DNA from: Hufsiella arboris
GTDB lineage: Bacteria > Bacteroidota > Bacteroidia > Sphingobacteriales > Sphingobacteriaceae
DNA: 64,000 nt
NCBI RefSeq assembly: GCF_009834875.1
Contig: NZ_WVHT01000012.1
Span: 1-64,000 of the forward strand
Reading direction: 5' to 3'
The notes beneath the pieces were generated by a model. The model was given only the letters and a program-made list of their open reading frames with translations, did not search any database and was not told the DNA's origin. Of the stretch, positions 1,983-28,510 are shown one piece after another. Both the position numbers and the translations under genes were made by a program. Within the stretch, counting starts at the first letter, position 1. Each line of letters opens with the position of its first letter.

Positions 1983-3524
1983 CTAATTCGCGCTCGGCTT
2001 TTCACTCATTTTATGTATTACTTCGTCAAGGTTAAAGCTGGCGGGTTTTTGCCTAGGCGGGAATTCTCTGAAAGTAGATAACCATTTGCCTACGAACGCC
2101 TGGGCCCCATACAGAAAGAAGATATTCTTCGCCTTCCAGTCAGGGTACCAAGAAGACTGAGGCCCACGCTCAAAAGGATCTGCATACAGGTCGTATATCA
2201 TAGGAGCTCTAAGTCTTTCATAGTTTCTGTCCCAAATTGCGAGCCCGGTATTGTATTGTTCTATAAATGCCAGTTTCCATCGTCCGTAACGCACGGCAAA
2301 AAGATCGCCGTCATCGCTCCAGTAAAGAAATTCCTTTCGGGGATCTTCTTTTACATCTCCTTTCAAAAAAGGCAGCATGTTATACCCGTCCAGGTGAACT
2401 TTGAAAGTTTTGTTTCCGGCCGCATAACCTTTAAGGCATTTTTGAACGATATCTGGTTCACCCGCAGCGGCGCAAAAAGTGGGTATAAAATCTTCGTGTG
2501 CAAATATATCGTTTGAAATAGTGCCGGGTTTAATAACACCAGGCCATTTGATGAGTGTTGGTACACGATAACCACCTTCCCAATTGGTCGCTTTTTCTCC
2601 GCGAAAAGGTGTGCTGCCACCGTCGGGCCAGCTCATCATCTCGGCCCCATTATCAGTAGTGAACACAACAATCGTATTATTCGCCACGCCCAGTTTTTCA
2701 AGCTCTGCCAGCAATTTACCTACATTATCATCCAGTTCCGTCATTGCATCTGCTTCTAAACCCAGACCTGTTTTACCTTCATATTGCGGACTCAAATGGG
2801 TGAAAATATGGCATCGTGTAGAGTTGTAATAACAAAAGAAAGGCTTTTTTTCTTTGACTTTCCTGTCCATAAAGTTGATTGCGGCGCTTGTAAACTCTTC
2901 GTCAACTGTTTCCATCCGTTTTTTTGTAAGCGGTCCGGTATCCTCTATCTTTCCATCGGCAGTTGATTTGATAACTCCGCGTGGACCAAACATTTTTTTG
3001 TAATTGGGATCTTTAGGATAATTGGGTGCTTCCGGTTCTTCTTCCGCGTTCAGATGGTAGAGATTGCCAAAAAACTCATCGAACCCATGATTACTAGGCA
3101 GAAATTCATCTTTATCACCCAAATGGTTTTTACCGAACTGGCCCGTGGCATAACCAAGCGGCTTCAGCAATTCTGCCACACTCGGATCCTTGGCACTCAA
3201 CCCTATATTTGCACCTGGCATACCAACCTTTGTCAATCCGGTACGAATTGGCGATTGCCCGGTAACAAAGGCCGCCCGGCCTGCTGTGCAACTTTGCTGG
3301 CCGTACCAGCAAGTAAAAAGGGCGCCTTCATTTGCAATACGATCTATATTAGGCGTTTTATACCCCATCATACCACGATTGTAACACCCTGCGTTATACC
3401 ACCCGATATCATCTCCCATAATAACCAGGATATTCGGCTTGTTTTGCGCATCAACTTGTAATGCAATTGCGGTCAGCGTTATGGCAACGGCGACATTAGT
3501 AAGTAAATTAAATTTAATTTTCAT
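1983..3524 (-). CDS. Arylsulfatase (S1 family), secreted
   Basis: A 513-residue sulfatase that hydrolyses a sulfate ester; the substrate cannot be read from sequence. The signal peptide runs to about residue 26 (VDAQ). Metal ligands sit in MGDDIGW (about 37-42). The C-T-A-G-R motif at 79-83 matches the C-x-(P/A)-x-R signature that a formylglycine-generating enzyme modifies. GKNHLGD and FTTDNG are also present. The closest relative is its neighbour at 271-1859. Its modification enzyme is not in this window. No SusC/SusD pair flanks it, so there is no sign here of a full polysaccharide utilisation locus. It probably shares a transcript with the PepSY-like gene 51 bases upstream. Confidence 0.93.
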   Translation of the reverse strand: MKIKFNLLTNVAVAITLTAIALQVDAQNKPNILVIMGDDIGWYNAGCYNRGMMGYKTPNIDRIANEGALFTCWYGQQSCTAGRAAFVTGQSPIRTGLTKVGMPGANIGLSAKDPSVAELLKPLGYATGQFGKNHLGDKDEFLPSNHGFDEFFGNLYHLNAEEEPEAPNYPKDPNYKKMFGPRGVIKSTADGKIEDTGPLTKKRMETVDEEFTSAAINFMDRKVKEKKPFFCYYNSTRCHIFTHLSPQYEGKTGLGLEADAMTELDDNVGKLLAELEKLGVANNTIVVFTTDNGAEMMSWPDGGSTPFRGEKATNWEGGYRVPTLIKWPGVIKPGTISNDIFAHEDFIPTFCAAAGEPDIVQKCLKGYAAGNKTFKVHLDGYNMLPFLKGDVKEDPRKEFLYWSDDGDLFAVRYGRWKLAFIEQYNTGLAIWDRNYERLRAPMIYDLYADPFERGPQSSWYPDWKAKNIFFLYGAQAFVGKWLSTFREFPPRQKPASFNLDEVIHKMSEKPSAN

Positions 3525-7249: not shown

Positions 7250-7564
7250 AGGTGTATGGTAATAAAGCTCTAACAGTTGCGGGCATTCTTAGTTTTTTAA
7301 AAAAATTCACTCCTTAACGTCACTCTTGTTTTTGTAACATTTTTATTGCAGTTTTAAACACCAATTGTAATAAACTAACCCAACGCTAAACAAACAAGAC
7401 GTTCGCCACTGAGTAAGACCAAGTAACCGCTTTACTTAATTCATGTAACCGCTTTACCGCGCTCTCAACTTCGTTTTGCTGTTTTTCAACTGCGGGTTCA
7501 ATTTCTATTGTCATGCCTCAGCGCTGACCAGTCAATCCTTATTTCTTAATAAACTAACTAAATT
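7250..7564. other. Divergent intergenic regulatory region
   Basis: 315 bases without an ORF separate the DUF4142 gene (minus) from the AhpD/TonB/MFS operon (plus). The region contains the 13-bp direct repeat described separately (7423-7457). No perfect TAnnTTTG box was found for the plus-strand operon; TTATTTCTTAA near 7540 is the nearest A/T-rich match and is weak. Confidence 0.5.
7423..7457. promoter_or_regulatory. Candidate operator: 13-bp direct repeat
   Basis: GTAACCGCTTTAC occurs exactly twice, at 7423-7435 and 7445-7457. The 22-bp period is close to two helical turns, so both sites would face the same side of the DNA. They lie 108-142 bases upstream of the first gene of the plus-strand operon. 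This arrangement is typical of a regulator binding direct half-sites, but no regulator gene is adjacent. Confidence 0.5.
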
Positions 7565-8125
7565 ATGCCTCACATAGCACTTGAGCCTCATCTTCCGGGG
7601 ATTACAGGCTTGCTGGAATACCGCAAAGAAACGGGCCAGCCAATACGTGATCTGACACAAATCTTACTGCGTGGACCTTCGACACTTTCCGAGGCCGAAA
7701 GGGAGTTGATAGCAACTGTCGTGTCCAACGAAAATCAGTGCAAATTTTGCACCACCGCACACACAGCAGCTGCGGACCGCCTGCTCGGCGAACACGAAAC
7801 GACACAAAGCATTAAAAATGATATTTCGTCCGCTGCGCTCAGCGATAAAATAAAAGCTCTGCTGCAGATCGCTGCTCTTACTGCACGGAGCGGCAAACTA
7901 GTGACCGAAGAAGTGATCGGCAAAGCGAAAGCTGCCGGAGCAACAGATCTTGAAATCCACGATACGGTGCTTATTGCCGCTTTATTTTGTCTCTATAACC
8001 GGTACGTTGACGGAATGGCGACCGCTCTCCCGGAAAATGAAAGCTATTATGACACACTCGCCGAACGACTTGTAAACCACGGTTACACACGCCTGCCACA
8101 GGGATATGACCATTTAAAAAAATAA
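7565..8125 (+). CDS. AhpD-like peroxidase-related protein (1)
   Basis: A 186-residue protein of the carboxymuconolactone decarboxylase/AhpD fold. The redox motif C59-x-x-C62-xxx-H66 (NQCKFCTTAH), preceded by a glutamate-containing helix (EAERELIATVVS), is that of AhpD-type and 'peroxidase-related' proteins, which use the cysteine pair for thiol chemistry. The C-terminal half has EIHDTVLIAALFCLYNRYVDG, shared nearly word for word with the fourth gene of this operon. It is soluble with no signal peptide. It is followed after 18 bases by a TonB receptor. Substrate unknown; it might protect against or process the imported compound. Confidence 0.85.
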   Translation: MPHIALEPHLPGITGLLEYRKETGQPIRDLTQILLRGPSTLSEAERELIATVVSNENQCKFCTTAHTAAADRLLGEHETTQSIKNDISSAALSDKIKALLQIAALTARSGKLVTEEVIGKAKAAGATDLEIHDTVLIAALFCLYNRYVDGMATALPENESYYDTLAERLVNHGYTRLPQGYDHLKK

Positions 8126-8143
8126 ACTAAACCTAAACAAACT

Positions 8144-10915
8144 ATGAAACGAATACTACTTATCATTATACTTTTCTCGTCGCTTGGCCTGTATGCGCAG
8201 CAAGCAAAGATTAGCGGGACAGCGTCCGACAGTTTAACGGCCAAACCGTTAAGCGGTGCCAGCATTAAGGTAAAAGGGAAAACCAACGGCACTACCACAG
8301 ACGCGCAGGGAAATTTCTCGTTGAATATTGCCAATCTAAAGTTTCCTTTATTACTATCGGTATCATCAGTAGGATACGAAAACAAGGAGATCCTGGTAAA
8401 TAACGCCGGCGAGGCTGTGCGTATCACTTTAAACCAGCAGGTTGTGCTGCTTAACGAGGTTGTAACAGCAGCCAGCCGCGTAAGTGAAAACATCCTCCGG
8501 TCACCGGTAAGTATTGAAAAACTAAACCTGAAAGGTATCAAAGAAAACCCTTCGTTAACGTTTTACGATGGCTTGCAAAGTTTAAAAGGAATGGAAGCCG
8601 TTACCAGCAGTTTAACTTACAAACAGGTTAATTCGCGGGGTTTTAACAGTACCGGCAATCCACGATTTCTACAGCTGGTAGACGGAGTTGATAACCAAAC
8701 CCCGGGTTTGAATTTTGCAGTAGGTAATATGTTCGGCGCTTCGGATATTGACGTAGAAAGCGTCGAAGTTATTCCCGGTGCGGCTTCTGCACTTTATGGC
8801 CCTGTGGCATTCAACGGCGCATTGCTTATGCACACAAAGGATGCTTTTCAATACCAGGGTCTTACGCTACAAGCTAAAACCGGCATTAACCACCTTAATG
8901 AAAGCGCCACCGGATCTAAAGGCTTATATGACCTCGCTCTGCGTTATGCAAAAGCCTTCAATAACAAGTTCGCATTTAAGATCAACGCGTCCTACCTGAG
9001 CGGAACAGACTGGTACGCGACAAATTACACGGATGTAAGCGCCCTCACACCTGCCAATATGCGCGGTCCGGCTAATCCTGGAAAGGACGCGCTTAATATC
9101 TACGGAGACGAAGTGTCAAAACCAATAGATGGCGTTGGCCTGGTATCACGCACCGGCTACGAAGAAAAGGACCTGATGAATTACGATGTTTACAGCCTGA
9201 AGCTGAATGGTGCATTGCAATACAAAATAACCGATAAGTTGCAGGCCATTTACCAGTACAATTATGGACGGGGCACAGCGAGCTATTCCGGCAGCAGCCG
9301 TTTTGATCTGAATAATTTTGTACTGCAAACACACCGCCTGGAATTAAAGTCGAACAATTTCTTTGTTCGCGGATACACCGTGATAGAAAATTCGCACGAT
9401 TCATATAATACACGTTCACTGGCGCAATTTATAAACCGCGACTGGGTTCAGGATCTTACCGGCAAGGTTGTAAGCCCAGACAAAGCCGATAACACTTGGT
9501 TCGACCGTTACACAGCAGCATTTAAGGGGGAGGTTAACGGAGTGAACGCCCAAAACCATGGCGCGGCCAGAGTCTTTGCCGACCAGGGAAGATTCTTGCC
9601 AGGAACAGCAGCTTTTAATGATGCAAAAGACGCTTCAATTCACAATTATGGTTTAAGCGGCGCCGGCGTTTTCAGCAATAGCAAATTTTACAATGCAGAA
9701 GGGCAGTATGATTTCCGGTCTGCCGTAAAAGTGATCGACCTCCTTGCCGGGGCAAGCTTTCGCTACTATGACATGTTCACTAATGGCAGTCTCTTCGACG
9801 ATAAAGACAACAAAGTTACCATTAAAGAGTTCGGAGCCTTTGTGCAAGCAGGAAAAAGCCTGATCGATGATAAGTTACGCCTGTTGGCATCGATACGTTA
9901 CGATAAAAACGAAAATTTCGATGGCTATTTTACGCCAAGGGTATCGGCGGTGTACACTGTTGCACGCAATCATAACTTCCGCGCATCGTACCAAACCGGC
10001 TTCAGGAATCCGACACCGGTCGATCAATTCATCCACCTGAACGTAGGCCCTATCACCATCCTCGGCGGCGCTCCAAAGAACAGTGAAAATCTTACCGTTT
10101 ATCAGAATTCATTTACCGCAAGCTCATTTGGCGCATTTGCAGGAGCATTCGGAAAAGACTTAGCCGGAGGAAAACCTTTTCCGCAGGCCGTAGCAGATAA
10201 TAAAAATTTACTGCAGAAATCAAACGTACCCTACATCAAACCCGAACAACAAAAAGCCTTTGAAGTAGGCTACAAAGGACTACTTGCCAATAAGCTCATG
10301 ATAGACCTGAACTATTATTACAGCGCCTACACCAATTTCATCCTGAATACCACAGTAAATGCACCACAATCCAGCGTATATACCGCCGACGGTTCAATAA
10401 ATCCCATCGCTGCTGCCGAAGCCTTGAGCAGTACGACCAGTCATTTTTACCAGCTTTACACCAACGCGCCCGACAAAGTTTCGGCACAGGGCGGAGGTGC
10501 CGGGCTTACGTGGGTGCTTCCACGGAACTATACACTCGGTGGCAACATAACTATCGCCTCCTTTAACCTGCGAAATGCAAACCCCAACAATGTGGCGGCT
10601 TTCAATACGCCCAAATACAGCACCAATCTGACATTTGCCAACGGCAATGTCCTGCACGGATTTGGCTTTAACCTCAACTGGCATTGGCAAAGCGGATTTG
10701 ACTGGTACGGTACCTTTAACGGCAACCGCCCCGGAAGGATCGACGCTTACTCATTGGTGGATATGCAGGTTAATAAAAAACTCCCGAAGGCAAACGCGAC
10801 GATCAAGCTTGGCGGAAGCAATATTTTCAATAACCAGGTCTACCAGGCATATGGCTCTCCGTCTGTTGGTGCAATTTATTATGTATCGTTAACCTTTGAA
10901 AACCTCCTTAAATAA
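8144..10915 (+). CDS. TonB-dependent outer-membrane receptor
   Basis: A 923-residue receptor for energised uptake across the outer membrane. The signal peptide ends at about residue 19 (LYAQ). A carboxypeptidase-like regulatory domain covers about 22-105 (GTASDSLTAKPLSGASIKVKG). The plug runs from about 110 to 235, with NSRGFNSTGNPRFLQLVDGVDNQ and VESVEVIPGAASALYGPVAFNG. The rest is barrel, ending in aromatic-containing LTFENLLK. There is no SusD partner, so it is not a standard SusCD pair. Its stop codon overlaps the MFS start by one base (TAATG), indicating translational coupling. The ligand is not evident. Confidence 0.92.
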   Translation: MKRILLIIILFSSLGLYAQQAKISGTASDSLTAKPLSGASIKVKGKTNGTTTDAQGNFSLNIANLKFPLLLSVSSVGYENKEILVNNAGEAVRITLNQQVVLLNEVVTAASRVSENILRSPVSIEKLNLKGIKENPSLTFYDGLQSLKGMEAVTSSLTYKQVNSRGFNSTGNPRFLQLVDGVDNQTPGLNFAVGNMFGASDIDVESVEVIPGAASALYGPVAFNGALLMHTKDAFQYQGLTLQAKTGINHLNESATGSKGLYDLALRYAKAFNNKFAFKINASYLSGTDWYATNYTDVSALTPANMRGPANPGKDALNIYGDEVSKPIDGVGLVSRTGYEEKDLMNYDVYSLKLNGALQYKITDKLQAIYQYNYGRGTASYSGSSRFDLNNFVLQTHRLELKSNNFFVRGYTVIENSHDSYNTRSLAQFINRDWVQDLTGKVVSPDKADNTWFDRYTAAFKGEVNGVNAQNHGAARVFADQGRFLPGTAAFNDAKDASIHNYGLSGAGVFSNSKFYNAEGQYDFRSAVKVIDLLAGASFRYYDMFTNGSLFDDKDNKVTIKEFGAFVQAGKSLIDDKLRLLASIRYDKNENFDGYFTPRVSAVYTVARNHNFRASYQTGFRNPTPVDQFIHLNVGPITILGGAPKNSENLTVYQNSFTASSFGAFAGAFGKDLAGGKPFPQAVADNKNLLQKSNVPYIKPEQQKAFEVGYKGLLANKLMIDLNYYYSAYTNFILNTTVNAPQSSVYTADGSINPIAAAEALSSTTSHFYQLYTNAPDKVSAQGGGAGLTWVLPRNYTLGGNITIASFNLRNANPNNVAAFNTPKYSTNLTFANGNVLHGFGFNLNWHWQSGFDWYGTFNGNRPGRIDAYSLVDMQVNKKLPKANATIKLGGSNIFNNQVYQAYGSPSVGAIYYVSLTFENLLK

Positions 10916-12213
10916 TGGAAACGCTTTTAATTAACCCTCCGGAGGTCGTACGCCGAAAAACGTTGTACCTGTTTCCGCTATTTATATTATGCTTTCTGAG
11001 CAGTGCTTTCGGCGGATCGGTTTCTACACTGATGTCTGTTTACCTGCCGGTCGTTGTACAAGACCTGCGGGGCGGGCAGAACGCCGAACAGCTAAGCTAC
11101 ATTAGCGGCTACATCAATTCACTGTTCATTTTTGGCTGGGCTATCGGCGGATTTTCATGGGGGCTGATAAGTGACAGAACCGGCCGGAAGAGCGCTTTAC
11201 TGATGGCGATTTCCTGCTATGGTATTTTCACAGTATTGACAGGGTTTATGCCGAGTTGGCTGGGCCTTGTGATTTGCCGTTGCCTGAGCGGATTTGGCGT
11301 GGGCGGCGTGTTGGTCGTGTCGTTTACTTTGATAAGCGAAGTTTGGCCTGCTAAAAGTAAGGCGGTTTATACGGGCATTTTATCGATCGCCTTCCCGATT
11401 GGAATCTTCTCTGCCGGACTGATCAATTATTTTGTATCATCCTGGCGGGAAGGTTTCCTTATCGGATCGCTGCCTCTTGCGCTTGCGTTAATCGGATATT
11501 TCATTATCGATGAATCGGATGTCTGGACGACACACCGCACGGAAAAGCTACACAGCAAACTGATCGACAACAGCCTGTTTTCGGCGACCAACAGACAAGA
11601 CCTTCTAACTGGCTCTGTCATATTCGGCACCATGCTTATCGGTTTATGGGCCATATTTTCCTGGCTTCCTACATGGGTTCAAACCCTGGTAAACGATGAT
11701 GGCCAGAAGGAAAGAAGTTTAAGTATGATGTTCCTTGGTATGGGCGGGTTGGTAGGCGGCTTTTTTTCCGGCTGGCTGTTAAAAAGCGCAGGCATGAAAC
11801 GATCTCTGATTATTTGCTTCACTGTTTGCGCAGTCGTTTCCTTTATTCTTTTCAAAACGAACGATAGATTTTCGCAGGTTGTTTACGCGGAGATAGCGGT
11901 GCTTGCATTATTTTTCGGCGCCAGCCAGGGCATTTTATCAGTTTATATTCCCGGCTTGTTTAAAACAGGTATTCGTGCTGCGGCAACCGGCTTTTGCTTC
12001 AATGCCGGCCGACTGTTCACCGCGGCCGCCGTACTTTTTGTCGGCCTGCTTGTAAATGAGCTTGGCGGTTATGGGAACGCTTTGTTCATATTTTCACTTG
12101 TTTTTCTGGTTGGACTGATTTGCGTTCTGGCGCTGAAAATAAGTGATGAAGTTACTGCCCATACCAACAGTAAAATACCAGAAGCTAATATTATTACCGA
12201 TAACGAACTTTGA
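10915..12213 (+). CDS. MFS transporter
   Basis: A 432-residue inner-membrane carrier of the major facilitator superfamily with about 12 hydrophobic segments. The loop after the second helix carries the motif GLISDRTGRKSALL, and CRCLSGFGVGGVLVVSFTLISEVWP resembles the organic-acid/sugar symporter branches. A long polar loop (about residues 200-225) splits the two halves. It sits inside the operon, one base overlapping the receptor, so it probably carries the receptor's ligand from periplasm to cytoplasm, though export cannot be excluded. Confidence 0.9.
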   Translation: METLLINPPEVVRRKTLYLFPLFILCFLSSAFGGSVSTLMSVYLPVVVQDLRGGQNAEQLSYISGYINSLFIFGWAIGGFSWGLISDRTGRKSALLMAISCYGIFTVLTGFMPSWLGLVICRCLSGFGVGGVLVVSFTLISEVWPAKSKAVYTGILSIAFPIGIFSAGLINYFVSSWREGFLIGSLPLALALIGYFIIDESDVWTTHRTEKLHSKLIDNSLFSATNRQDLLTGSVIFGTMLIGLWAIFSWLPTWVQTLVNDDGQKERSLSMMFLGMGGLVGGFFSGWLLKSAGMKRSLIICFTVCAVVSFILFKTNDRFSQVVYAEIAVLALFFGASQGILSVYIPGLFKTGIRAAATGFCFNAGRLFTAAAVLFVGLLVNELGGYGNALFIFSLVFLVGLICVLALKISDEVTAHTNSKIPEANIITDNEL

Positions 12214-12215
12214 TT

Positions 12216-12764
12216 ATGGCACATATCGAATTAAACAATGATCTCCCCGGAATAAGGGGACTGATGGCTTTCCGGCCTGAAACGGAAAGGCCCTTAAATT
12301 TACTTGCGGAAACGCTCCTGCGTGACGATAATAACTCTTTGAGCCGCGGCGAACGCGAACTCATTGCGACTTATGTTTCATATCTGAATGATTGCTTTTT
12401 TTGCCAAAATGTCCATGGCGCTCTTGCCGGACATTACCTGAAGTGCAATACCGATGAAATCGATGAAATAAAAAATAATTTTAATTCCGTCAACATCAGC
12501 ACTAAGCTGAAAGCCTTATTGGACATTGCAGCAAGCGTACAAAAAGGCGGCAAACACGTAAGCGGTGAGCAGATAGCCGTGGCAAAAAACGCACGTGCAA
12601 GTGATGTGGAAATCCATGATACGGTTTTAATCGCCGCGGCATTTTGCATGTTCAACCGCTATGTCGACGGGCTAGCCACCTGGGCGCCTCAGGACAGGCA
12701 GTTTTATGTTAACAGGGCTCCGCAACGAGCCGAAGAAGGATATTTGGCGAGCGTTTTCAAATAG
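12216..12764 (+). CDS. AhpD-like peroxidase-related protein (2)
   Basis: A 182-residue paralogue of the first gene of the operon. The ATG at 12216, two bases after the MFS stop, is preferred over an upstream in-frame TTG because MAHIELNNDLPGIRG then aligns with MPHIALEPHLPGITG of the paralogue. The redox motif is C60-x-x-C63-xxx-H67 (NDCFFCQNVH). The second half repeats EIHDTVLIAAAFCMFNRYVDG. Two related thiol enzymes at the two ends of one transport operon may form a heteromer or act on successive intermediates (inference). A large hairpin closes the operon. Confidence 0.85.
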   Translation: MAHIELNNDLPGIRGLMAFRPETERPLNLLAETLLRDDNNSLSRGERELIATYVSYLNDCFFCQNVHGALAGHYLKCNTDEIDEIKNNFNSVNISTKLKALLDIAASVQKGGKHVSGEQIAVAKNARASDVEIHDTVLIAAAFCMFNRYVDGLATWAPQDRQFYVNRAPQRAEEGYLASVFK

Positions 12765-12770
12765 TTCTGT

Positions 12771-12805
12771 ATCAGCCGGACAATTCATATGAATGTCCGG
12801 CTGAT
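12771..12805 (+). terminator. Hairpin closing the AhpD/TonB/MFS operon
   Basis: An almost loop-free palindrome: ATCAGCCGGACAATTCAT (12771-12788) faces ATGAATGTCCGGCTGAT (12789-12805), with one bulged A. It starts 6 bases after the stop codon. No long T-run follows, so it may act as a 3'-end stabiliser or a weak terminator. Confidence 0.6.
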
Positions 12806-12843
12806 CAGTTTGTACATTCCTTAAACATCCTGATATTAGCGGA

Positions 12844-13143
12844 GTGAAAATCCTTTGCTGCCTATTGACGTTTTATGTATTGCTCCTTGCTGTAAAGCCA
12901 TGCTGCATAAATGATTCATGCGGCGATAACTCTGCTAAAAAAGAACTTCAAAAAGGTAATGACTGTAACGTTTGTTCTCCGTTCTTTTCATGCGGTACAT
13001 GCAACGGTTTCGTAATAAATCCGTCACAGGAAAAGGGCGCGTCTCTTTCGGCCTCTGTTCCCAGAAAATCATATCCGGTATACCTGACCCCCTTTTTTCA
13101 AAAAGTCACTTTAAAAATTTGGCAACCGCCCAAGTTAGTCTGA
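12844..13143 (+). CDS. Small secreted Cys-rich protein (DUF6660-like)
   Basis: A 99-residue protein with a GTG start, preceded by GGA. A hydrophobic signal segment (about 1-18) is followed by a cysteine-rich part: KPCCINDSC and then CNVCSPFFSCGTC (about 41-53), a CxxC-x5-CxxC arrangement suited to metal binding. The C-terminal third is basic. Its placement 42 bases before a TonB receptor resembles DUF6660-type proteins of Bacteroidota, which often accompany metal uptake or efflux genes. The family assignment rests on length, cysteine pattern and context. A role in periplasmic metal handling is inference. Confidence 0.65.
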   Translation: MKILCCLLTFYVLLLAVKPCCINDSCGDNSAKKELQKGNDCNVCSPFFSCGTCNGFVINPSQEKGASLSASVPRKSYPVYLTPFFQKVTLKIWQPPKLV

Positions 13144-13185
13144 CAGGTCAAATTCTCAATTTTCCTAACGACTAATTTACATTAA

Positions 13186-15375
13186 ATGAAAACTACATCG
13201 CTGCTCATTGCAGTATTATTATGCCATATAAGTTCGTTTGGTCAATACGCATTTCGGGGAAAAATCCTTGACAAAACCAGCGGACAGCCATTGCCAGGCG
13301 CGACATTCAGCTTTACAGACCTAAAACGTTCAATGGCGGCTAACGACACGGGGGTAGTTGAGTTTTCGGGCATACCAAGCGGTTTGCACAACATTCGGAT
13401 CAGCTATACAGGATATGAAATCCTTTTTATCCGCGCCAACGTAACAGGCGAACAGGATTCTTTACAACTGTTTTTGCTAAGCGCCAGGAACGAATCGGAA
13501 GATAATGAGTTGAATCAGGTGATTATAACTGCTACGCGCAGCGGCCTGGATCTCGCAAGCACACCGACCCGTGCAGAAGTGGTGAATGGCGAAGAGCTTC
13601 AAGAAAAGGCAAACATGAAACCTGGCGACATTCGTATGCTACTGGCAGAAACGACGGGGATTCAAACGCAGCAAACTTCTGCGACAAGTGCCAACGCCAG
13701 CATCCGCATTCAAGGCCTGGACGGAAAATACACCCAAATAATCCGGGATGGTTTTCCGCTTTATTCAGGGTTTTCGGGCGGCTTAGGCCTGTTGCAGATA
13801 GCTCCTCTTGATTTAAAACAGGTGGAAGTAATCAAAGGTTCATCATCTACCTTATATGGAGGAGGCGCAATTGCTGGCTTGGTGAACCTTGTTTCAAAAA
13901 CACCCTCCGAAAAACCGCAGCTGAACGTTTTATTGAACGCAACATCTGCGCTTGGTTTCGACGGCAGTGCATTTTACTCGTGGCGATCCGAAAATATCGG
14001 AACTACGATTTTTGCCGCCTATAACCATGGCAATGCCTACGATCCCGCAAATATCGACCTTACAGCTATTCCTAAGTACGACCGGGTTACATTAAATCCA
14101 AAGGTTTGGTTGTACCTCGGTAAAAATACGACTATTAATGTCGGAGTGAACGCGATGAGTGAAAATCGAATTGGGGGCGATCTCCATTATATCAAAGGCG
14201 ATGCCTCCTCCGATCATTCATATTTCGAGCAAAACAAAACGGGACGTATCAGTACGCAGGCAGGCTTTGATACCTGGCTTAATTATCAGAGCAAACTCAG
14301 TGTAAAAAACAGCCTCAGTTATTATGACCGAAAAATGCAATTACCGGATTATATCTTTTCAGGAAAGCAGTTTTCAACTTTTAGTGAAGCTAATTACGCA
14401 TACAACGGTGTGAAAGCCGAATGGATAGCCGGCTTGAATTTTTATTCAGATCATTTTGCCGAAGACAAGCAGATTTCTTTTCCCTTGCGCAGTTACTCCC
14501 AAAATACATTTGGAATATTTTTGCAGAATACATGGCGGGTTACTGAAAAACTCAGCCTGGAATCTGGTTTGCGTGGTGATTACCATACCGATTACGGTTT
14601 TTTTGTCCTGCCACGGTTAGCCGGACTTTGGAAGATCAATCCGTATTTATCAACCCGGATTAGCGGTGGTCTTGGTTATAAACCACCAACTATCTTTACC
14701 GAAGACGCGGAACGTATACAGTTCCGAAATGTATTACCGATTGATGTAAACAACACAAAAGCTGAAAGATCGTACGGCGCAAATATCGACCTTAATTATA
14801 CAGTCAGGCTTGTTAACGACAAGGTCGGATTTTCAGTTAATCAATTGTTTTTTTACACCAGAATAAAAGACCCGATTATTTTAACATCGCTGGATAACGG
14901 ATATTTACAATACCTGCAGCCACAGGGCGATCTGCATACCAAAGGACTGGAAACCAATGCCAGGATAATCACCGGGAATTTCAAGTTGTTTATCGGCTAT
15001 ACGTTCGCTGACGTAAACCAGCATACAAACGATCTTTTCCGACAGTATCCGCTTGTATCAAAACACCGGCTTAATAATGTATTGATGTACGAACTAGAAG
15101 ACAAATGGAAAATCGGTCTTGAGGCTTATTACTTTAGCAGGCAGCAGCTGAACGATGGTACAACTGGAAGAAGTTACTGGACAACCGGTTTTATGGCAGA
15201 AAAGATCTGGGAGAAATTTTCGCTGTTCATCAATTTTGAAAATTTTACCGATACACGCCAAACGCGCTTTGGAAGTATTTATACCGGCAGTATAACCAAT
15301 CCGGAATTCAAAGATATTTATGCTCCGCTTGACGGCTTTGTAATAAATGGAGGAATTAAATTGAATTTTGACTAA
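13186..15375 (+). CDS. TonB-dependent receptor, CirA/BtuB-like
   Basis: A 729-residue outer-membrane receptor, a typical length for siderophore or metal-complex receptors and shorter than SusC. It has a signal peptide to about residue 19, a carboxypeptidase-like regulatory domain (about 22-105), and a plug from about 110 to 235 (IRIQGLDGKYTQIIRDGFPLYSG; LKQVEVIKGSSSTLYGGGAIAGLVNLVSK). A 22-strand-type barrel follows, ending GGIKLNFD. The Cys-rich mini-protein upstream points to a metal or metal-chelate ligand (inference). It is not related to the 923-residue receptor beyond the superfamily. Confidence 0.92.
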   Translation: MKTTSLLIAVLLCHISSFGQYAFRGKILDKTSGQPLPGATFSFTDLKRSMAANDTGVVEFSGIPSGLHNIRISYTGYEILFIRANVTGEQDSLQLFLLSARNESEDNELNQVIITATRSGLDLASTPTRAEVVNGEELQEKANMKPGDIRMLLAETTGIQTQQTSATSANASIRIQGLDGKYTQIIRDGFPLYSGFSGGLGLLQIAPLDLKQVEVIKGSSSTLYGGGAIAGLVNLVSKTPSEKPQLNVLLNATSALGFDGSAFYSWRSENIGTTIFAAYNHGNAYDPANIDLTAIPKYDRVTLNPKVWLYLGKNTTINVGVNAMSENRIGGDLHYIKGDASSDHSYFEQNKTGRISTQAGFDTWLNYQSKLSVKNSLSYYDRKMQLPDYIFSGKQFSTFSEANYAYNGVKAEWIAGLNFYSDHFAEDKQISFPLRSYSQNTFGIFLQNTWRVTEKLSLESGLRGDYHTDYGFFVLPRLAGLWKINPYLSTRISGGLGYKPPTIFTEDAERIQFRNVLPIDVNNTKAERSYGANIDLNYTVRLVNDKVGFSVNQLFFYTRIKDPIILTSLDNGYLQYLQPQGDLHTKGLETNARIITGNFKLFIGYTFADVNQHTNDLFRQYPLVSKHRLNNVLMYELEDKWKIGLEAYYFSRQQLNDGTTGRSYWTTGFMAEKIWEKFSLFINFENFTDTRQTRFGSIYTGSITNPEFKDIYAPLDGFVINGGIKLNFD

Positions 15376-15382
15376 ACGAAAG

Positions 15383-15432
15383 AATGAGCCGGCTGACAGC
15401 TTCCGTTCAGGCCAGCTCATTAAGCATTATTT
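15383..15432. terminator. Convergent terminator
   Basis: An imperfect 13-14 bp stem (AATGAGCCGGCTG / CAGGCCAGCTCATT, about 15383-15422) is followed by TAAGCATTATTTTTTT. It lies between the convergent receptor and amidase genes and overlaps the amidase 3' end. Confidence 0.65.
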
Positions 15433-16233
15433 TTTTAAAGCTTTCAGCAGTTTATATTCGGCTATCGCTGTCAGCAAATTCTCCACAATTTCGGCCCGGC
15501 CCTCATTGGAGTTCATGTATTTTTCTTCTTTCGTGCTGCTGATATACCCAATTTCCGTGAGTACGGCCGGCATTCCGGCGCGCGCCAATACTGCCAGGCT
15601 CTGCTCCCGAACGCCCAGGTTATTCCTGTCCGATTTTCCGAATTGCTCCTGGATTTTTGAAGCGAGGGCCAGGCTTTGTTTGCGGAATTGATTTTTCATC
15701 AGCGAAAAAATGATCAGACTGGCAGGATCCTTAGGATCATAACCGTCGTAGTTTTTCTTATAATCCTTTTCGAAAAGGATAGATGCATTTTCCCGGATAG
15801 CGACATCCTGCTCGTCCAAGCGCCCGGAGCCGGACACATAGGTTTCCGTTCCGCTAAACGTGCTGCGCCCGGCTTTTTTAAGCGGCAGCGAGTTGCAATG
15901 AATAGATATAAAGACATCGGCTTTTGCTCGGTTCGCTATGCCGATACGGTCATAAAGCTTTACGTAAACATCAGTTGTCCGGGTGTAAATAACGCGCACG
16001 TCACTAAAGCGTGCTTCTATTGCTTTACCCAGCGCAAGTGCAACTTTTAAAGTAATTGATTTTTCAGCAGAGTATTCCCCGCTCGCTCCCCTGTCCTGGC
16101 CACCATGCCCGGCATCAATTACAATTGTTTTCACTTTCCCCGATGCGACCTGGCTAAAAGCAGGCTTCTGCGCACAGAGAGTCGTGAGAAAAATCAGTAC
16201 CAAACAGGGAAATTTTGAGAGTTTTTTTGTCAT
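15427..16233 (-). CDS. N-acetylmuramoyl-L-alanine amidase (Amidase_3)
   Basis: A 268-residue zinc amidase that cleaves the lactyl-peptide bond of peptidoglycan in the periplasm. The ATG at 16233 gives a proper signal peptide (ending near AFSQ); the frame stays open 30 codons upstream but without protein character. Zinc-binding motifs are seen in DAGHGGQD, the glutamate of AEKSITLKVALALG, and SIHCNS. The catalytic glutamate is in VLTEIGYISS near the C-terminus. It lacks LysM or other wall-binding domains. A short insertion (GTETYVSGS...NYDGYDPKDP) between the histidines is usual in Bacteroidota members. Confidence 0.92.
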   Translation of the reverse strand: MTKKLSKFPCLVLIFLTTLCAQKPAFSQVASGKVKTIVIDAGHGGQDRGASGEYSAEKSITLKVALALGKAIEARFSDVRVIYTRTTDVYVKLYDRIGIANRAKADVFISIHCNSLPLKKAGRSTFSGTETYVSGSGRLDEQDVAIRENASILFEKDYKKNYDGYDPKDPASLIIFSLMKNQFRKQSLALASKIQEQFGKSDRNNLGVREQSLAVLARAGMPAVLTEIGYISSTKEEKYMNSNEGRAEIVENLLTAIAEYKLLKALKK

Positions 16234-16413
16234 TAATATCGTACAGTTTGCTGCCTTTCCAGTCGTTAAAAAAATTACACGTTGCACCGCATTTTGTTTC
16301 AACCACCACCGTAAAGGGCTCAAAATGCATAAAAAACAATTAAATCGCCTAAAAATGTTGCTTTATGTGCTGAAAAATTTGAATTTTACACGAAACATTA
16401 TATACCTTTCGAC

Positions 16414-16590
16414 ATGGAAAAATTTTCAAAATTAAAAGAGCTTATCGCATCGGTAGAAGCGGACGCAGAAAAATTTTATAACAATTCTAACAACGCTGCA
16501 GGAACACGCGTTCGTAAAGCTATGCAAGATTTAAAAAACCTGGCTCAGGAAATCAGAACTGAGGTTACAGAAATTAAAAACAAAGCATAG
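16414..16590 (+). CDS. Histone H1-like (Hc1 family) mini-protein
   Basis: A 58-residue protein beginning MEKFSKLKELIASVEADAEK and containing AAGTRVRKAMQDLKNLAQEI. This matches the short Bacteroidota Hc1/histone H1-like family: an amphipathic helical pair with regularly spaced Lys/Arg, thought to bind DNA. A TACCTTTC box ends two bases before ATG, so the mRNA may be nearly leaderless. It is followed at 14 bases by a strong terminator, making it a monocistronic unit. Confidence 0.85.
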   Translation: MEKFSKLKELIASVEADAEKFYNNSNNAAGTRVRKAMQDLKNLAQEIRTEVTEIKNKA

Positions 16591-16603
16591 TCTAAAGAAA
16601 CAA

Positions 16604-16632
16604 GAAGAGCCCTTAATGGGCTCTTCACTTTT
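16604..16632 (+). terminator. Terminator of the histone-like gene
   Basis: A perfect 9-bp stem GAAGAGCCC/GGGCTCTTC (16604-16626, loop ttaat) is followed by ACTTTTATA. Confidence 0.8.
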
Positions 16633-16667
16633 ATATCACCTCTCAGAATCGTGTCGATTCTCACACT

Positions 16668-17399
16668 CTAAAAATATTTTTCGATCGTCAGCCCATAAGT
16701 AAACAACAGGTTTTCTTTATTTGTGCGAGCAAAATGATTATAAGTTAGCGAGCTTGTCAGGCCCAGCCACTTTCTAAGCTTAATTTTTAAGGCAGTATTG
16801 CCCTTTATAATGTAGTCACTTTTGTACTGCAGGGAATTTTGCAAAAAGCCAGTGCCCGAAAGCACGATGATTTCTTTAACCGTCCATTTAAAAGATAACC
16901 TGAGTGAATTACGAAAAGTTGTATATCGTTCCCGGGTGCTGTCATCCAGGAACAGATCACTTGTTTCAAACAGAATTCCGTCACTGATATTTAAATAATT
17001 ATTGTCATTATTAACCAGATTGTATGCGGCACCTATGCCGGTTTGCAACTGATTGTTAATTTTAAGCGAATAGCTCGTGGTATAATTTCCCAAACCCCAG
17101 TAATAAAGTTTCGTGTTTTTAGCGTAAAGATTAAAATCAAGCGTCGCGGTATAATCATTATTGGTAAGCCGCGAATCCTGGTTGCCATATAACCAGCTAT
17201 TGGAAGCGTTTAGCGTAACTCGTTTCTTCTTGACACTAAACCTTAAGGCATTGTTAAGCAGGTATGAATCGGCATCATCCGTTTTATTGATATTTCCCCC
17301 TAACGTAAAATTGACATAGTAATGAGTGCTGTCGGTAAATTGTGCGAATGAAAGCAGGTGACAAAGTATAAAAAAGAAAAGCATACATCCTTTTTTCAT
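16668..17399 (-). CDS. DUF481 outer-membrane beta-barrel protein
   Basis: A 243-residue exported protein with a signal peptide to about residue 19 (LLSFAQ). Alternating hydrophobic/polar strands follow, with sequence typical of DUF481 (ALRFSVKKKRVTLNASNSWLYG, LRLSFKWTVKEIIVLSGTGF), ending in an aromatic residue (IEKYF). That pattern suggests a small outer-membrane barrel. Function unknown. It is convergent with the histone-like gene and has about 230 bases of upstream space. Confidence 0.8.
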   Translation of the reverse strand: MKKGCMLFFFILCHLLSFAQFTDSTHYYVNFTLGGNINKTDDADSYLLNNALRFSVKKKRVTLNASNSWLYGNQDSRLTNNDYTATLDFNLYAKNTKLYYWGLGNYTTSYSLKINNQLQTGIGAAYNLVNNDNNYLNISDGILFETSDLFLDDSTRERYTTFRNSLRLSFKWTVKEIIVLSGTGFLQNSLQYKSDYIIKGNTALKIKLRKWLGLTSSLTYNHFARTNKENLLFTYGLTIEKYF

Positions 17400-24175: not shown

Positions 24176-25225
24176 TCATTCTCCTTCCTCCACCTGCACT
24201 ACCTCGTATTTGTTAGCGCCATCAACCTTTACGGGCTGGTAATAGGTTTCGCCAACTTTCACATAAGTTTCATCTCCCACTTTAACTTCTTCTCCACCTT
24301 CAGGAAGATTAGTCACTACTGCTCCGGCCGGCGGCGCTACTACTTTATAACTGCTTCCGCTCTTTTCATAATATGCTCCGCCATAGTAATAATTGGTCGT
24401 GTTATTTACCACCACCGTTTCAGTACCCGACGGAACAGTCGTTATGGTTCCTCCCACGGGAGCCTGAACTACTGTATAACCGTTGTTCGCCTGCTGGTAC
24501 CAAACGCCCTGATCATAATGATACTGCGCATTTTCAACAGCTACAACAATAGCCGTGGTGGCCAGGGCGGCCACAAAAAAGCCCCATGGGTGCCATACCG
24601 GACCCCAGTAAAATGGGCGAAATGGGTGATAAACGTATGGATGGTAACCGTAATATCTTCTGCCGCCATAAACATACGGAGGGCGCACATAGGTATTTAA
24701 ATTATTACGGCGTACGACAGTATTGCGGTTGTTAATATTGACATCCCTGCTCCGGTCAACATTGATGTTGACATTCTTACGGCTGTTATCAACGTTCACC
24801 TTATTGCCGATGTTCGTTTTGTTGCCAATGTTAGTGTTGTTGCCCGGTCGGTTGTTATTGTTATTACCGGGGCGACTGTTATTAATAGATGCTGGCCGGT
24901 TATTACCGGTGTTGTTAGCTAAGCCCGGGCTATTATTATGTTGGTTTGAACCGCCCCTGTTTTGAAGAGCTGAACCTGCATTAGAACGTCTGTCAGGGCT
25001 AACACCTCGACCAGAAGATGAGGTCATAGCCGGTCTGTTGGCCGATATATTACCGCCGCCGTTTATTGATCGGTTGGCTCCGCCGGATAGCCGGGAAATT
25101 CCGCCACCACCACCACCGCGATGTCCCAGGCGCTGGGCAGCCAGGTCTTCAGAAATTAAAAGAATAAAACAGCTGGTGAGCAATCCGAGCGCCATGTGGC
25201 GATACCTCCTGCTTAGCTTTTTCAT
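24176..25225 (-). CDS. DUF6515-type low-complexity secreted protein
   Basis: A 349-residue exported protein. The signal peptide ends near LAAQ (about residue 30). A Gly/Asn/Arg-rich region follows (about 33-175, runs such as NRPGNNNNNRPGNN and repeated NIGNK), then a Tyr/Pro/His-rich segment (YYGYHPYVYHPFRPFYWGPVWHPWG), one hydrophobic helix (about 213-228), and a C-terminal part made of three similar SH3-like units (GVWYQQANNGYTVV.., YYEKSGSSYKVVAPPAG.., YVKVGETYYQPV). The last part is the DUF6515 signature. Function unknown; probably envelope-associated. It is 20 bases downstream of the DUF2092 gene and surely co-transcribed. Confidence 0.85.
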   Translation of the reverse strand: MKKLSRRYRHMALGLLTSCFILLISEDLAAQRLGHRGGGGGGISRLSGGANRSINGGGNISANRPAMTSSSGRGVSPDRRSNAGSALQNRGGSNQHNNSPGLANNTGNNRPASINNSRPGNNNNNRPGNNTNIGNKTNIGNKVNVDNSRKNVNINVDRSRDVNINNRNTVVRRNNLNTYVRPPYVYGGRRYYGYHPYVYHPFRPFYWGPVWHPWGFFVAALATTAIVVAVENAQYHYDQGVWYQQANNGYTVVQAPVGGTITTVPSGTETVVVNNTTNYYYGGAYYEKSGSSYKVVAPPAGAVVTNLPEGGEEVKVGDETYVKVGETYYQPVKVDGANKYEVVQVEEGE

Positions 25226-25245
25226 AGTTATGATATTAAAATTAA

Positions 25246-25998
25246 CTAATTCTTTTTGGATAAAATGATGAGCTTATTCGCGTTGGCGGGCTTCTCGAAA
25301 CTGAATAATGAGTCGGGCAGATCGGGATTTAATTTCCAGTCGGTGATATTTGCTTCATAATGCTTTGTATTTTCATCCAGCCCGATGATGATCAATTTAG
25401 CCGGCAGGCAATTCTCATCCGCATTAAGCCATAATTGTATGGAAACCTGTTTGCTCTTCGCCGCGATCTTATGATAAGCCTTGTCGTTTATCGTCATCTT
25501 TCCCAGGTACTCGATACGGTCGGATATATCGATTAGATCGTCGGTGAACGTCGGGTAAAAAAAATCGGACGCTGGAAAATCCACTCCGTAATTCCGGTGT
25601 ACTTTATCAATCGCTTCGACGGTTGTAGAAGGAGCCGAGTCCATCGTTCCATAATTATTCTGTGTATAAGAATAGTAAACCAGGTTCTTGCCATTGAACC
25701 AGAAGCCCGCTTTTCCTTTCTCGCCTTCTGACATTACCTGCATTTTATTGTTGCCCGAAAAACTGACCTTGCTTTCATTAAATTCTGAAAGCGTCCCAAA
25801 CTGCGAATCGTTTTCGTCTGATAAGGAACGAACCGTAAAACTGCAGGAGTTCAGCTTCCCGATGGTATTGGTCATCTTATCGAGCAAATTAATGGCTGCA
25901 GAGTCCAGGAATTTTTGTTGGGCAAAGGAATCGCCGGAAAAGATAGCTCCTGCAAACAACAATCCTGTGAACGACCTGATTATAGTTGCTTTTTTCAT
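25246..25998 (-). CDS. DUF2092 periplasmic protein
   Basis: A 250-residue exported protein. The ATG at 25998 is chosen because MKKATIIRSFTGLLFAGA begins a normal signal peptide (ending near SFAQ); the 19 codons upstream are derived from the direct repeat in the leader. The mature protein has the LolA-like half-barrel pattern of DUF2092: AINLLDKMTNTIGKL, KMQVMSEGEKGKAGFWFNGKNLVYYS, a central MTINDKAYHKIAAK and the closing DSLFSFEKP. Related proteins bind lipids or act as anti-sigma-like modules; no function is claimed. First gene of a two-gene unit with the DUF6515 protein. Confidence 0.85.
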   Translation of the reverse strand: MKKATIIRSFTGLLFAGAIFSGDSFAQQKFLDSAAINLLDKMTNTIGKLNSCSFTVRSLSDENDSQFGTLSEFNESKVSFSGNNKMQVMSEGEKGKAGFWFNGKNLVYYSYTQNNYGTMDSAPSTTVEAIDKVHRNYGVDFPASDFFYPTFTDDLIDISDRIEYLGKMTINDKAYHKIAAKSKQVSIQLWLNADENCLPAKLIIIGLDENTKHYEANITDWKLNPDLPDSLFSFEKPANANKLIILSKKN

Positions 25999-26004
25999 AA
26001 GCTT

Positions 26005-26040
26005 ATTTATTTGTAGTCTCCCGGCATTTATTTGTAATCT
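26005..26040 (-). promoter_or_regulatory. Direct repeat in the DUF2092 leader
   Basis: ATTTATTTGTAGTCT (26005-26019) and ATTTATTTGTAATCT (26026-26040) differ in one base and have a 21-bp period, two helical turns. They lie 7-42 bases upstream of the DUF2092 start codon and could be protein-binding sites or a slippage duplication. Confidence 0.45.
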
Positions 26041-26350
26041 GTGCCAGGCTAGCATAATTAAAATAAAGTTAAGCTTAGTTAAAAGTAAACCGCGACTATG
26101 CGGAATGTGAGAAGTTTCAAATTACAAAGTGAAACCATTATTATATCGGCAAGGCTGATGCAAGGAGGCCGAATCAAACTCCCCGGCGTTTTTAATACCT
26201 CGCGCGTTGCTTTATCCCTTGGAACCTTCTTCCAATTTTTTTATGTCCGCGATCGACATTTACTACTACAAGTTGTCAAAAACAACCATAATTAGCAGAT
26301 TTACAACTAACAGGTTCCGCGTTTTTTACCGATTCTGATGTGAATCAAAA

Positions 26351-26358
26351 TACTTTTG
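26351..26358 (+). promoter_or_regulatory. Bacteroidota -7 box of the XRE gene
   Basis: TACTTTTG is a perfect TAnnTTTG match, 25 bases before the start codon. The upstream -33 region is only T-rich (GTTTTTTA). Confidence 0.55.
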
Positions 26359-26383
26359 CATTGTCGAAAAATTAAAAACACTT

Positions 26384-27280
26384 ATGGACACTAAGAAGAT
26401 TGGCAGCAAAATTGCCAAAGCACGAAAAGAAATCAACATATCCCAAGCGCGACTTGGTCAACTTATATTTGTCAGCCCGCAAGCAGTTGGAAAATGGGAA
26501 CGCGGTGAGTCTATCCCGGACATCATTACATTTAACCGGCTCGCCCAAATTCTGGGTGTTGATCTCAACTATTTTTCGGACACTTTCAAATCCGCAGTCA
26601 ACGAAGCGGCAACCGAATCTCTTGTAACCCAACCGGCCGAATTGCTACCAGAACAACTGGAAAACAAAGTTGGCTGGGATATGTCACGCGGAAACTGGGT
26701 GGACGCGGACTTTTCCGAATTAAAAAATTTGCATGAAAAATTCAGTTCTTCTAGCATGCAGAACTGCAAGTTTATCGCTTCGGATTTATCAAAACTTCTT
26801 CTAAAAAACAATAATATCGATAGCTGCAACTTCTCCGGTTCCGACCTGAGCAGCAGCCGTATTCGAAACTCAAATTTAGTCAACAATCTCTTTAACGACT
26901 GTTCGCTAAAAGAAGCTGAACTATCAGACAGTCATATAAAAGGTTGCGATTTTTCTGGCGCAGATTTTTCCGGAGTGACATTCAAATCGTCAGACTTCGT
27001 AAAAAATATAATGATAAATACAGTTTGGAACCGCGCCTCGTTTAACTCCACTCATTTTGCCGATCTTGTTTTTGACGGCACAATAGAAAACTGCCATTTT
27101 GAAAATTGCGGATTTTCCAGGGTGACATTTCAAAATGCAACGCTCATTAATATCTTCTTTAAAAATAATCATCGATTGAAACAGGTTCAGTTCATTGATT
27201 GCAAGGCGGACAATCTAACTTATGCTTTTTTGAAAAACGGAAAGGCGGACCTTACAGGTATTACATTGTTGGCAACATAG
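26384..27280 (+). CDS. XRE HTH-pentapeptide repeat fusion protein
   Basis: A 298-residue protein fusing an XRE/Cro-type DNA-binding domain (about 5-62: SKIAKARKEINISQARLGQLIFVSPQAVGKWERGESIP) to a right-handed beta-helix of pentapeptide repeats (about 95-290), with layers such as LSSSRIRNSNLVNNLFNDCS and CDFSGADFSGVTFKSSDF. Pentapeptide helices in other families mimic DNA and bind gyrase or serve as scaffolds. Here the fusion suggests a regulator whose C-terminal half mediates oligomerisation or sensing (inference). It stands alone with no antitoxin-like partner. Cysteines recur at layer corners (SCNFSG, GCDFSG, NCHFEN), a regular spacing worth noting. Confidence 0.88.
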   Translation: MDTKKIGSKIAKARKEINISQARLGQLIFVSPQAVGKWERGESIPDIITFNRLAQILGVDLNYFSDTFKSAVNEAATESLVTQPAELLPEQLENKVGWDMSRGNWVDADFSELKNLHEKFSSSSMQNCKFIASDLSKLLLKNNNIDSCNFSGSDLSSSRIRNSNLVNNLFNDCSLKEAELSDSHIKGCDFSGADFSGVTFKSSDFVKNIMINTVWNRASFNSTHFADLVFDGTIENCHFENCGFSRVTFQNATLINIFFKNNHRLKQVQFIDCKADNLTYAFLKNGKADLTGITLLAT

Positions 27281-27643
27281 CAACATGTTCTTACTGCACG
27301 ACAGAATACTTCTTTGCTAGAAATTTTTGAGCGACAAATCTTAAAAAGTGGTGGCCTTATTCATTAAGCTATGTAATATGATTTCATAGAAGGTTTAAGT
27401 GGCCCTGCGCGACACTTAAGCCAGATTTGGGTTATCATTAAAAACCAACAGCAACGTCAGTGATTAACCGTATAAGCTTGAAAAAATTAATGGATCGTTA
27501 TGCCGGTTTTATTTTATGAGCAAATCAGCGCATGGTTGACCGGATTTCAACAAAACCGAAGGAGTTGTTATTCAGGAAAACCCCTTCGAGTTTTTCCGAT
27601 GCAATGGTTACCAGCGGAATCAATCACATTACAAAAATGTATA
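27281..27643. other. Intergenic region without a gene
   Basis: 363 bases between convergent genes. The plus-strand frames at 27500-27867 run into the antisense of the reductase gene and have no protein character. An imperfect hairpin (TTAAGTG..CACTTAA, about 27399-27420) lies downstream of the XRE-pentapeptide gene. Nothing else is recognised. Confidence 0.5.
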
Positions 27644-28207: not shown

Positions 28208-28373
28208 GCTATAGGTATTATTGGTGTTAAGTTAGGTTACAACTGAAATCTTATTCGGTTTTTGCACGCTCCCGATTACAGTTGCTATAATCGCTTTCTT
28301 GGCAATTTTGGCAGAAATGTTATCTTTATAGCTTGTTACATAGTCATATGTAATTGTGATAAGGTTTAGGTTA

Positions 28374-28402
28374 CTCCAGGCAGAAATGTCTGGAGTTTTT
28401 TT
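28374..28402 (+). terminator. Orphan hairpin with U-tract
   Basis: CTCCAG-gcagaaatgt-CTGGAG followed by TTTTTTTA resembles an intrinsic terminator, but no plus-strand gene ends nearby. It could end a short non-coding RNA in the divergent gap 28208-28510 or be a relic. Confidence 0.4.
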
Positions 28403-28510
28403 ATTTAACAGGCCACGATTTACCAGGCGCGTGATCTGATTCACTCCATTTGGCTTCTTAAATTTTTAACCTTTAATATATTTGGAAGTCAACTACCCGT
28501 ACTAATCAAC

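Follow-up and report, generated by a model that had tools for sequence, protein, structure and literature searches.

An AhpD–TonB receptor–MFS–AhpD operon of Hufsiella arboris belongs to a conserved group of Bacteroidota loci with exchangeable outer-membrane ports

The locus described here has two thiol-redox proteins of the AhpD type in the same compact operon as an outer-membrane receptor and an inner-membrane carrier. It lies in a 64,000-nucleotide stretch of Hufsiella arboris DNA (contig NZ_WVHT01000012.1, positions 1 to 64,000), referred to below as the window. The host is a soil bacterium, and the window holds one copy of a widespread gene set.

All four genes are on the forward strand. 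AhpD1 (7565–8125; 186 aa; E-x11-CKFC-xxx-H), an AhpD-like thiol redox protein assigned to class alpha by its ORF, profiles and tree position, is followed by a 923 aa TonB-dependent receptor without a SusD partner (8144–10915; ORF and profiles), a 432 aa MFS carrier (10915–12213) with profile matches to MFS_1/Sugar_tr, and AhpD2 (12216–12764; 182 aa; E-x11-CFFC-xxx-H), placed in class gamma by the same evidence as AhpD1. AhpD2 starts at the ATG at 12216, and there is an in-frame TTG at 12210. The gene coordinates bear out the order and the spacings of 18, −1 and 2 bases given for 7565–12764 in the original prediction, and ORFs and family profiles agree with it that the operon has no SusD, siderophore gene or ahpC. 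The ahpC seen in this genome is on contig C1, adjoining a separate AhpD-like gene. As read from the sequence, the receptor has a signal peptide and both AhpDs lack one.

The window operon is a variant form of a locus conserved in Bacteroidota. The order AhpD–receptor–MFS–AhpD is present in 35 of the fetched loci, where the gaps have medians of 31, 5 and 15 bases (approximate values, as ORF starts were set mechanically), and recurs in Mucilaginibacter, Pedobacter, Chitinophagaceae, Cytophagales and on a Spirosoma plasmid. When only the MFS was searched against 201 genomes of the family, all 11 close MFS genes adjoined AhpDs, and the carrier occurred in 10 of the 201 genomes, showing the operon to be accessory. 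At phylum scale nine of the ten MFS genes with at least about 43% identity are AhpD-linked, and among more distant ones only a single locus (L191) is, containing an MFS, two AhpDs and a receptor. Similarly, a search with the receptor alone placed every receptor of at least 58% identity (9/9) in the same cluster. The proposal that these genes form one coupled unit is thus upheld: the order is not unique to this genome, and the AhpD genes do not lie beside unrelated genes in all relatives, the two outcomes that had been named beforehand as telling against it.

The usual plan of the locus is c3 – AhpDα – receptor – MFS – AhpDβ – AhpDγ (– DUF3179), around a constant core of AhpDα – MFS – AhpDβ/γ. 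Two flanking AhpDs are therefore not the basic plan, because most relatives have three or more; the beta-class AhpD found in most of them is missing from the window operon, which has kept alpha and gamma. Also absent from the window operon is the gene for c3, a small upstream protein of about 182 aa with an N-terminal helix and a PP terminus, for which searches gave no Pfam family and no significant fold match. The DUF3179 companions have YC(T/S)xC in 23 of 23 cases, and this family is listed with selenoprotein members (PMC9312934). A MetE-domain protein also occurs among the companions, which are thus of thiol type as well. Some AhpDs of the subfamily accompany only DUF3179 or FG-GAP genes, with no transporter, so that transport is not needed for every member. 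The original prediction knew of no described pathway with this exact set, and in the literature searched we likewise found no paper describing an AhpD–receptor/SusCD–MFS set; this widespread Bacteroidota gene set is apparently undescribed so far.

The outer-membrane port is exchangeable around the constant AhpD/MFS core. The window receptor matches CarboxypepD_reg_2, Plug and barrel profiles, falls below the cut-off of the SusC/RagA model TIGR04056 (92 bits vs 368), has no adjoining SusD, and matches TonB siderophore/haem models weakly. A lone TonB receptor precedes the MFS in 41 loci, and 22 have SusC/SusD, with no locus having both. Absence of SusD is consequently not a defining trait, since SusC/SusD stands in for the lone receptor in those 22 loci, including a second operon of this genome in which AhpDs of classes zeta, epsilon and delta accompany SusCD, an esterase and an MFS. 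As in SusCD-type uptake loci, the port and its companion enzymes share an operon – and the sister loci use SusCD itself – but here the enzymes beside the port are of the thiol-redox kind instead of glycoside hydrolases, and the window copy has the lone TonB receptor. The swap of ports around a constant core is a natural experiment on ligand choice. A receptor paralogue at contig C12 was considered as a clue to the ligand, and its neighbours are uninformative.

AhpD1 and AhpD2 both match Pfam CMD (PF02627) and pass the NCBIfam model TIGR01926 'peroxidase-related enzyme' (88.3 and 82.9 bits, respectively; cut-off 81.8). The automatic name gamma-carboxymuconolactone decarboxylase arises because the Pfam domain is shared, and we reject that identity: the decarboxylase family is marked by gamma-CMD motifs and is without C-x-x-C (PMC3141380), yet both window AhpDs have C-x-x-C. 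The C-x-x-C-xxx-H motif predicted for both is present, as CKFCTTAH and CFFCQNVH, and E-x11-CxxCxxxH is kept in 247 of 247 full-length AhpD relatives as well as in the window proteins. The common C-terminal block is also real (72% identity, vs 49% overall and 45% in the first half), although the statement that the two differ elsewhere is true in degree and not in kind. The AhpDs form six paralogue clades on the tree, with support of 99 for alpha and 95 for gamma, and the two window AhpDs are old, separate paralogues, which fits a heteromer or a difference in role. Class goes with position: alpha stands before the receptor or the MFS, beta directly after the MFS, gamma after the MFS, and zeta with SusCD.

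The predicted structure of AhpD2 (AF2; pLDDT 92.8) matches AhpD-like structures in the PDB at Z 16–19, and has the same fold as the TIGR01926 structures 2prr, 3c1l, 2pfx, 2oyo and 6k40 (Z 17.6–18.9). These solved proteins have E-x11-C-x2-C-x3-H in common with the Bacteroidota subfamily but differ in lacking the block HD-x8-F[CS]-x2-N[RK]Y, which all AhpD classes add and of which only N-R is kept in the different block of the solved proteins; the subfamily differs further in that its genes lie in transport operons, several paralogues next to one another. We discarded C144 as a third catalytic cysteine, because most beta and some alpha members have Ser there, so that it is not essential. The proton relay of M. 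tuberculosis AhpD consists of Glu118, Cys130, His132, Cys133 and His137 (PMC3141380), and four of the five are kept here (the equivalents of Glu118, Cys130, Cys133 and His137), whereas His132, in C-x-H-C, is Phe in both CKFC and CFFC. PA0269 has Tyr at this position and still shows weak peroxidase activity (PMC3141380). The fold match to M. tuberculosis AhpC/AhpD is weaker (Z about 12), and its partner ahpC has no counterpart in the window operon.

For the window MFS, the best-scoring subfamily is the aromatic acid/H+ symporter model TIGR00895, at 138 bits and below the cut-off of 418.6. Work on PcaK established D-G-x-D in TM1 as a motif of aromatic-acid/H+ symporters. It is absent from TM1 of the window MFS, which reads FGGSVS; among 74 AhpD-linked MFS proteins G34 is fixed and neither Asp is a conserved column, whereas several MFS relatives not linked to AhpD keep DGMD.

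We tentatively favor, at about an even chance, a modular Bacteroidota import-and-reduction system of which the window operon is one form. The TonB receptor – or SusC/SusD in other loci – would bring an organic compound through the outer membrane, the MFS would carry the same compound through the inner one, and the cytoplasmic AhpD-fold proteins would act on it through their Cys-x-x-Cys/His/Glu site, either reducing it or quenching an oxidant that it carries or generates. Since each class keeps to particular positions and partners, the proteins probably assemble into mixed oligomers or have substrates that are successive or related. The MFS could instead export, and the AhpDs could be protective and not catalytic on the cargo. 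A link between thiol-redox enzymes and dedicated import means that the identity of the transported compound would reveal what this AhpD subfamily acts on.

Several other explanations bear on the same genes. An oxidant-defence operon is unlikely; in it, organic peroxides or reactive chlorine/thiocyanate species would be destroyed by the AhpDs, while the receptor and MFS would obtain a protective metabolite or simply share a stress promoter. AhpD-like RclX guards P. aeruginosa from HOCl and HOSCN (PMC7950407), an AhpD-like protein has been associated with chlorite dismutase neighbourhoods (PMC9751292), and the activity of PA0269 noted above points the same way. RclX/RcsA-type proteins share the AhpD family and CxxC with those of the window; however, RclX is a shorter AhpD type, matching the AhpD2 model at Z 5.1 over 69 residues, and such short proteins are described under RclR control or near Cld, in passages that mention no TonB receptor/MFS operon. 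Moreover, neither in the operon nor among recurrent companions in relatives was an oxidant regulator, AhpC, thioredoxin or catalase recognised, the genome has its separate ahpC–AhpD pair, and the fixed coupling to a port and a carrier is left unexplained. Siderophore- or metal-type uptake with the AhpDs releasing the cargo by reduction is improbable: redox enzymes would suit such release and the receptor has its weak siderophore/haem matches, but the operon lacks a siderophore gene, no siderophore-processing gene was recognised as a recurrent companion, and the 22 loci with SusC/SusD instead suit an organic ligand, whether glycan-like, a peptide or of another kind. Conservation contradicts the very improbable reading that the genes are neighbours by accident, or an everyday transporter operon, with no functional coupling; genes for TonB receptors and MFS carriers are common and the operon is patchily distributed, but its order is conserved in dozens of genomes, in several orders, and back-searches with each member lead to AhpD loci.

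Also unlikely, somewhat less probable than oxidant defence and somewhat more probable than metal uptake, is a role in resisting or consuming a reactive natural product, such as an antibiotic that is halogenated or activated by thiols; the product would be taken up or expelled, whole or as a remnant, and reductively neutralised by the AhpDs. Outside Bacteroidota, in a search of plasmid records only, the closest AhpD relatives found come for the most part from biosynthetic clusters of Streptomyces; many of these clusters make enediynes, and the cluster of the C-1027 producer is among them. These form a separate clade (99 on the tree) with the window proteins outside it, and those read have T-x-x-C in place of C-x-x-C; having lost the first Cys, they cannot do the same redox chemistry. 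The debrominase Bmp8 (6ohi, 6ohj) falls within the AhpD fold (Z 16.0–16.1, rmsd 3.5 over 162–163 residues), but it is 13–14% identical and missed by the sequence profile. UnbV/ASPIC and PAP2/haloperoxidase-like genes occur in some Bacteroidota loci; UnbV/ASPIC does not in our view prove a link to enediynes, because the Bacteroidota FG-GAP proteins resemble enediyne CRTAC1 at domain level only (about 22–27%). No paper tying AhpD to enediynes was found in the literature searched, where we also found no role described for the conserved sister-clade gene of the enediyne clusters.

The enediyne-cluster relatives and the Bmp8 fold match lean, tentatively, toward a reactive or thiol-handled organic ligand of the sort guessed at in the original prediction. 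A more specific version is doubtful: that the AhpD subfamily, in up to six classes, constitutes mixed-subunit thiol reductases coupled to exchangeable ports and one MFS, which would reductively process an electrophilic or halogenated natural product after its uptake, with a sister clade recruited, minus one catalytic Cys, into Streptomyces enediyne clusters.

Other searches concerned the surroundings of the operon. No Rfam match was found near it or in nine relatives, which removes a riboswitch as a clue to the ligand, and PADLOC gave no match to a defence system. About 110–140 bp upstream of AhpD1 are two exact forward-strand copies of GTAACCGCTTTAC (7423–7435 and 7445–7457, together spanning 7423–7457), whose starts are 22 bp apart. 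The repeat is not a conserved regulon site, having one further exact copy only in the 4.8-Mb genome and being absent upstream of relatives. With up to two mismatches it has six matches in the window vs 1.5 expected, and we tentatively regard the pair as a possible operator.

The operon comprises four forward-strand genes encoding AhpD1 (7565-8125), a TonB-dependent receptor with signal peptide, CarboxypepD_reg_2, plug and barrel (8144-10915), an MFS protein (10915-12213) and AhpD2 (12216-12764), at the exact positions of the original prediction and with intergenic distances of 18, -1 and 2 bases. Both AhpDs match the Pfam CMD family, lie above the cut-off of NCBIfam TIGR01926 ('peroxidase-related enzyme'), and should be cytoplasmic, because their N-termini (MPHI and MAHI) show no signal sequence. 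The receptor scores far under the NCBIfam SusC model. The MFS protein is closest to aromatic-acid symporters, yet it falls under the model cut-off and its TM1 is missing the D-G-x-D motif, so an aromatic acid as ligand is only a guess. On the same strand, 79 bases past AhpD2, begins a stretch (12844-15375) that encodes a small DUF6660 protein and a further TonB receptor. Because this pairing does not appear in relatives, it probably forms a unit of its own, although it may be co-transcribed with AhpD2.

The gene arrangement goes beyond chance. A scan of GTDB genomes with AhpD2 as query gave 80 loci, mainly in Mucilaginibacter, Pedobacter, Chitinophagaceae and Cytophagales, with a regular plan of c3 (a small-protein cluster) – AhpDα – receptor – MFS – AhpDβ – AhpDγ, often followed by DUF3179. 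The AhpD–receptor–MFS–AhpD order, which had been proposed as one coupled unit, recurs in 35 loci, where the genes are separated by medians of 31, 5 and 15 bases. Because these loci had been found through AhpD, linkage was retested with the MFS and receptor as queries. Among 201 family genomes, the MFS search (E<1e-20) returned 11 genes in 10 genomes, all adjoining AhpDs, and all nine receptor genes at least 58% identical sit in this same cluster; the next receptors down (45% identity) have no adjacent AhpD where their surroundings were read. Across 395 genomes of the phylum, AhpD linkage holds for nine of the ten MFS genes at or above about 43% identity, and among more distant ones only at locus L191, which again carries, besides the MFS, two AhpDs (one of them α-type) and a TonB receptor. 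The locus is accessory, since a genome of the same genus has neither an AhpD2 nor an MFS match and the MFS is present in only 10 of the 201 family genomes; the same operon is found on a Spirosoma plasmid.

Trees of 246 AhpDs and, by a slower method, of 99 resolve six clades (supports: α 99, β 98, γ 95, δ 100, ε 96, ζ 99), each associated with a position or partner. AhpD1 is α and AhpD2 is γ; most relatives also carry β, which this operon lacks. The receptor lies directly 5′ of the MFS in 41 loci, none with SusD, and SusD is present in 22 loci, none with the receptor–MFS arrangement; as the two sets never overlap, the AhpD–MFS core is compatible with either type of outer-membrane port. Class ζ accompanies SusCD in 14 of the 15 loci holding it. 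H. arboris has both forms, the second being a paralogous ζ–SusC–SusD–esterase–MFS–ε–δ operon on contig C8 (about 25207-34109; 8207-17109 of locus L009). An AhpD gene remnant at G000:C53:154572-154893 in the same genome consists of overlapping pieces, one match having an in-frame TAG, and the family has thus also suffered loss here.

AhpD1 and AhpD2 both contain E-x11-C-x2-C-x3-H, which covers four of the five relay residues described for Mycobacterium tuberculosis AhpD (PMC3141380), whose His132 is replaced by Phe in both. This motif is kept in all 247 full-length AhpDs of the Bacteroidota loci, a subfamily distinguished from solved TIGR01926 proteins by the block HD-x8-F[CS]-x2-N[RK]Y. The AF2 model of AhpD2 (pLDDT 92.8) matches 2prr, 3c1l, 6k40, 2pfx and 2oyo (Z 17.6-18.9) and aligns with the debrominase Bmp8 at Z 16. 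Because AhpD-like proteins are most commonly hexameric (PMC3141380), mixed oligomers of the paralogues are plausible.

Gene clustering gave 27 DUF3179 companions, with YC[TS]xC in all 23 full-length members. DUF3179 and AhpD/CMD are both listed among families with selenoprotein members (PMC9312934), which makes both thiol-redox types, and the transporter-free AhpD–DUF3179 pairs at four loci (L131, L132, L134 and L136) suggest that the two proteins act jointly. Other recurrent companions are a MetE-catalytic-domain protein (12), an esterase (5), FG-GAP/UnbV_ASPIC (11), PAP2/haloperoxidase-like proteins (7) and c3 (62). The last (L013 1137-1688 and 61 others) is a secreted or membrane-anchored protein of ~182 aa with a terminal PP that opens most loci; it has no Pfam family, and PDB fold comparison gave no significant match.

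The member families are ordinary and their combination is unusual and conserved; we found no description of it in the open literature searched. The operon is a variant of TonB/SusCD-type uptake loci with dedicated AhpD enzymes. In the best supported reading, a compound would enter through the receptor (or SusCD) and then the MFS, and position-specific AhpD paralogues, perhaps as heteromers, would reduce it, or an accompanying oxidant, by thiol chemistry; gene anatomy, conservation, linkage, motif and predicted fold are observed, and from these we infer the direction of transport, ligand, chemistry and heteromers. Rival readings are metal-type uptake, general oxidant defence, for which RclX, an AhpD-like HOCl/HOSCN-defence protein, is a precedent, and the handling of reactive natural products.

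Outside Bacteroidota, AhpDs were sampled from plasmid records only, a biased set in which the nearest are from Actinomycetota (46-57%). In the Streptomyces regions inspected, AhpD is mostly inside biosynthetic clusters, and several of these bear the marks of enediyne synthesis. L168 has a chromoprotein with a 2,3-aminomutase, L169 and L180 have CRTAC1, DUF1702 and 'enediyne biosynthesis protein', L178 has KedN5, L173 and L174 have GMC oxidoreductase/thioesterase/TIGR03084/SgcJ-type sets, and L176 is from the C-1027 producer itself. The relatives read, including that of the C-1027 producer (S. globisporus C-1027 plasmid, L176 19995-20546), have T-x-x-C and form one clade; we found no discussion of them in the literature searched. 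They are kin of the Bacteroidota AhpDs but not the same machine, since for the related structure TTHA0727, cited in PMC3141380, replacement of the first cysteine was interpreted as peroxidase loss. An 'oxidoreductase' gene often follows these relatives (L165-L180).

Elsewhere in the window, a frameshift splits a reverse-strand sulfatase gene (271-1859) into an N-terminal ORF of 118 aa and a C-terminal one of 451 aa, which share 48% and 52% identity, respectively, with the intact gene beside it (1983-3524); the split gene is a pseudogene or the shift is a sequencing error.
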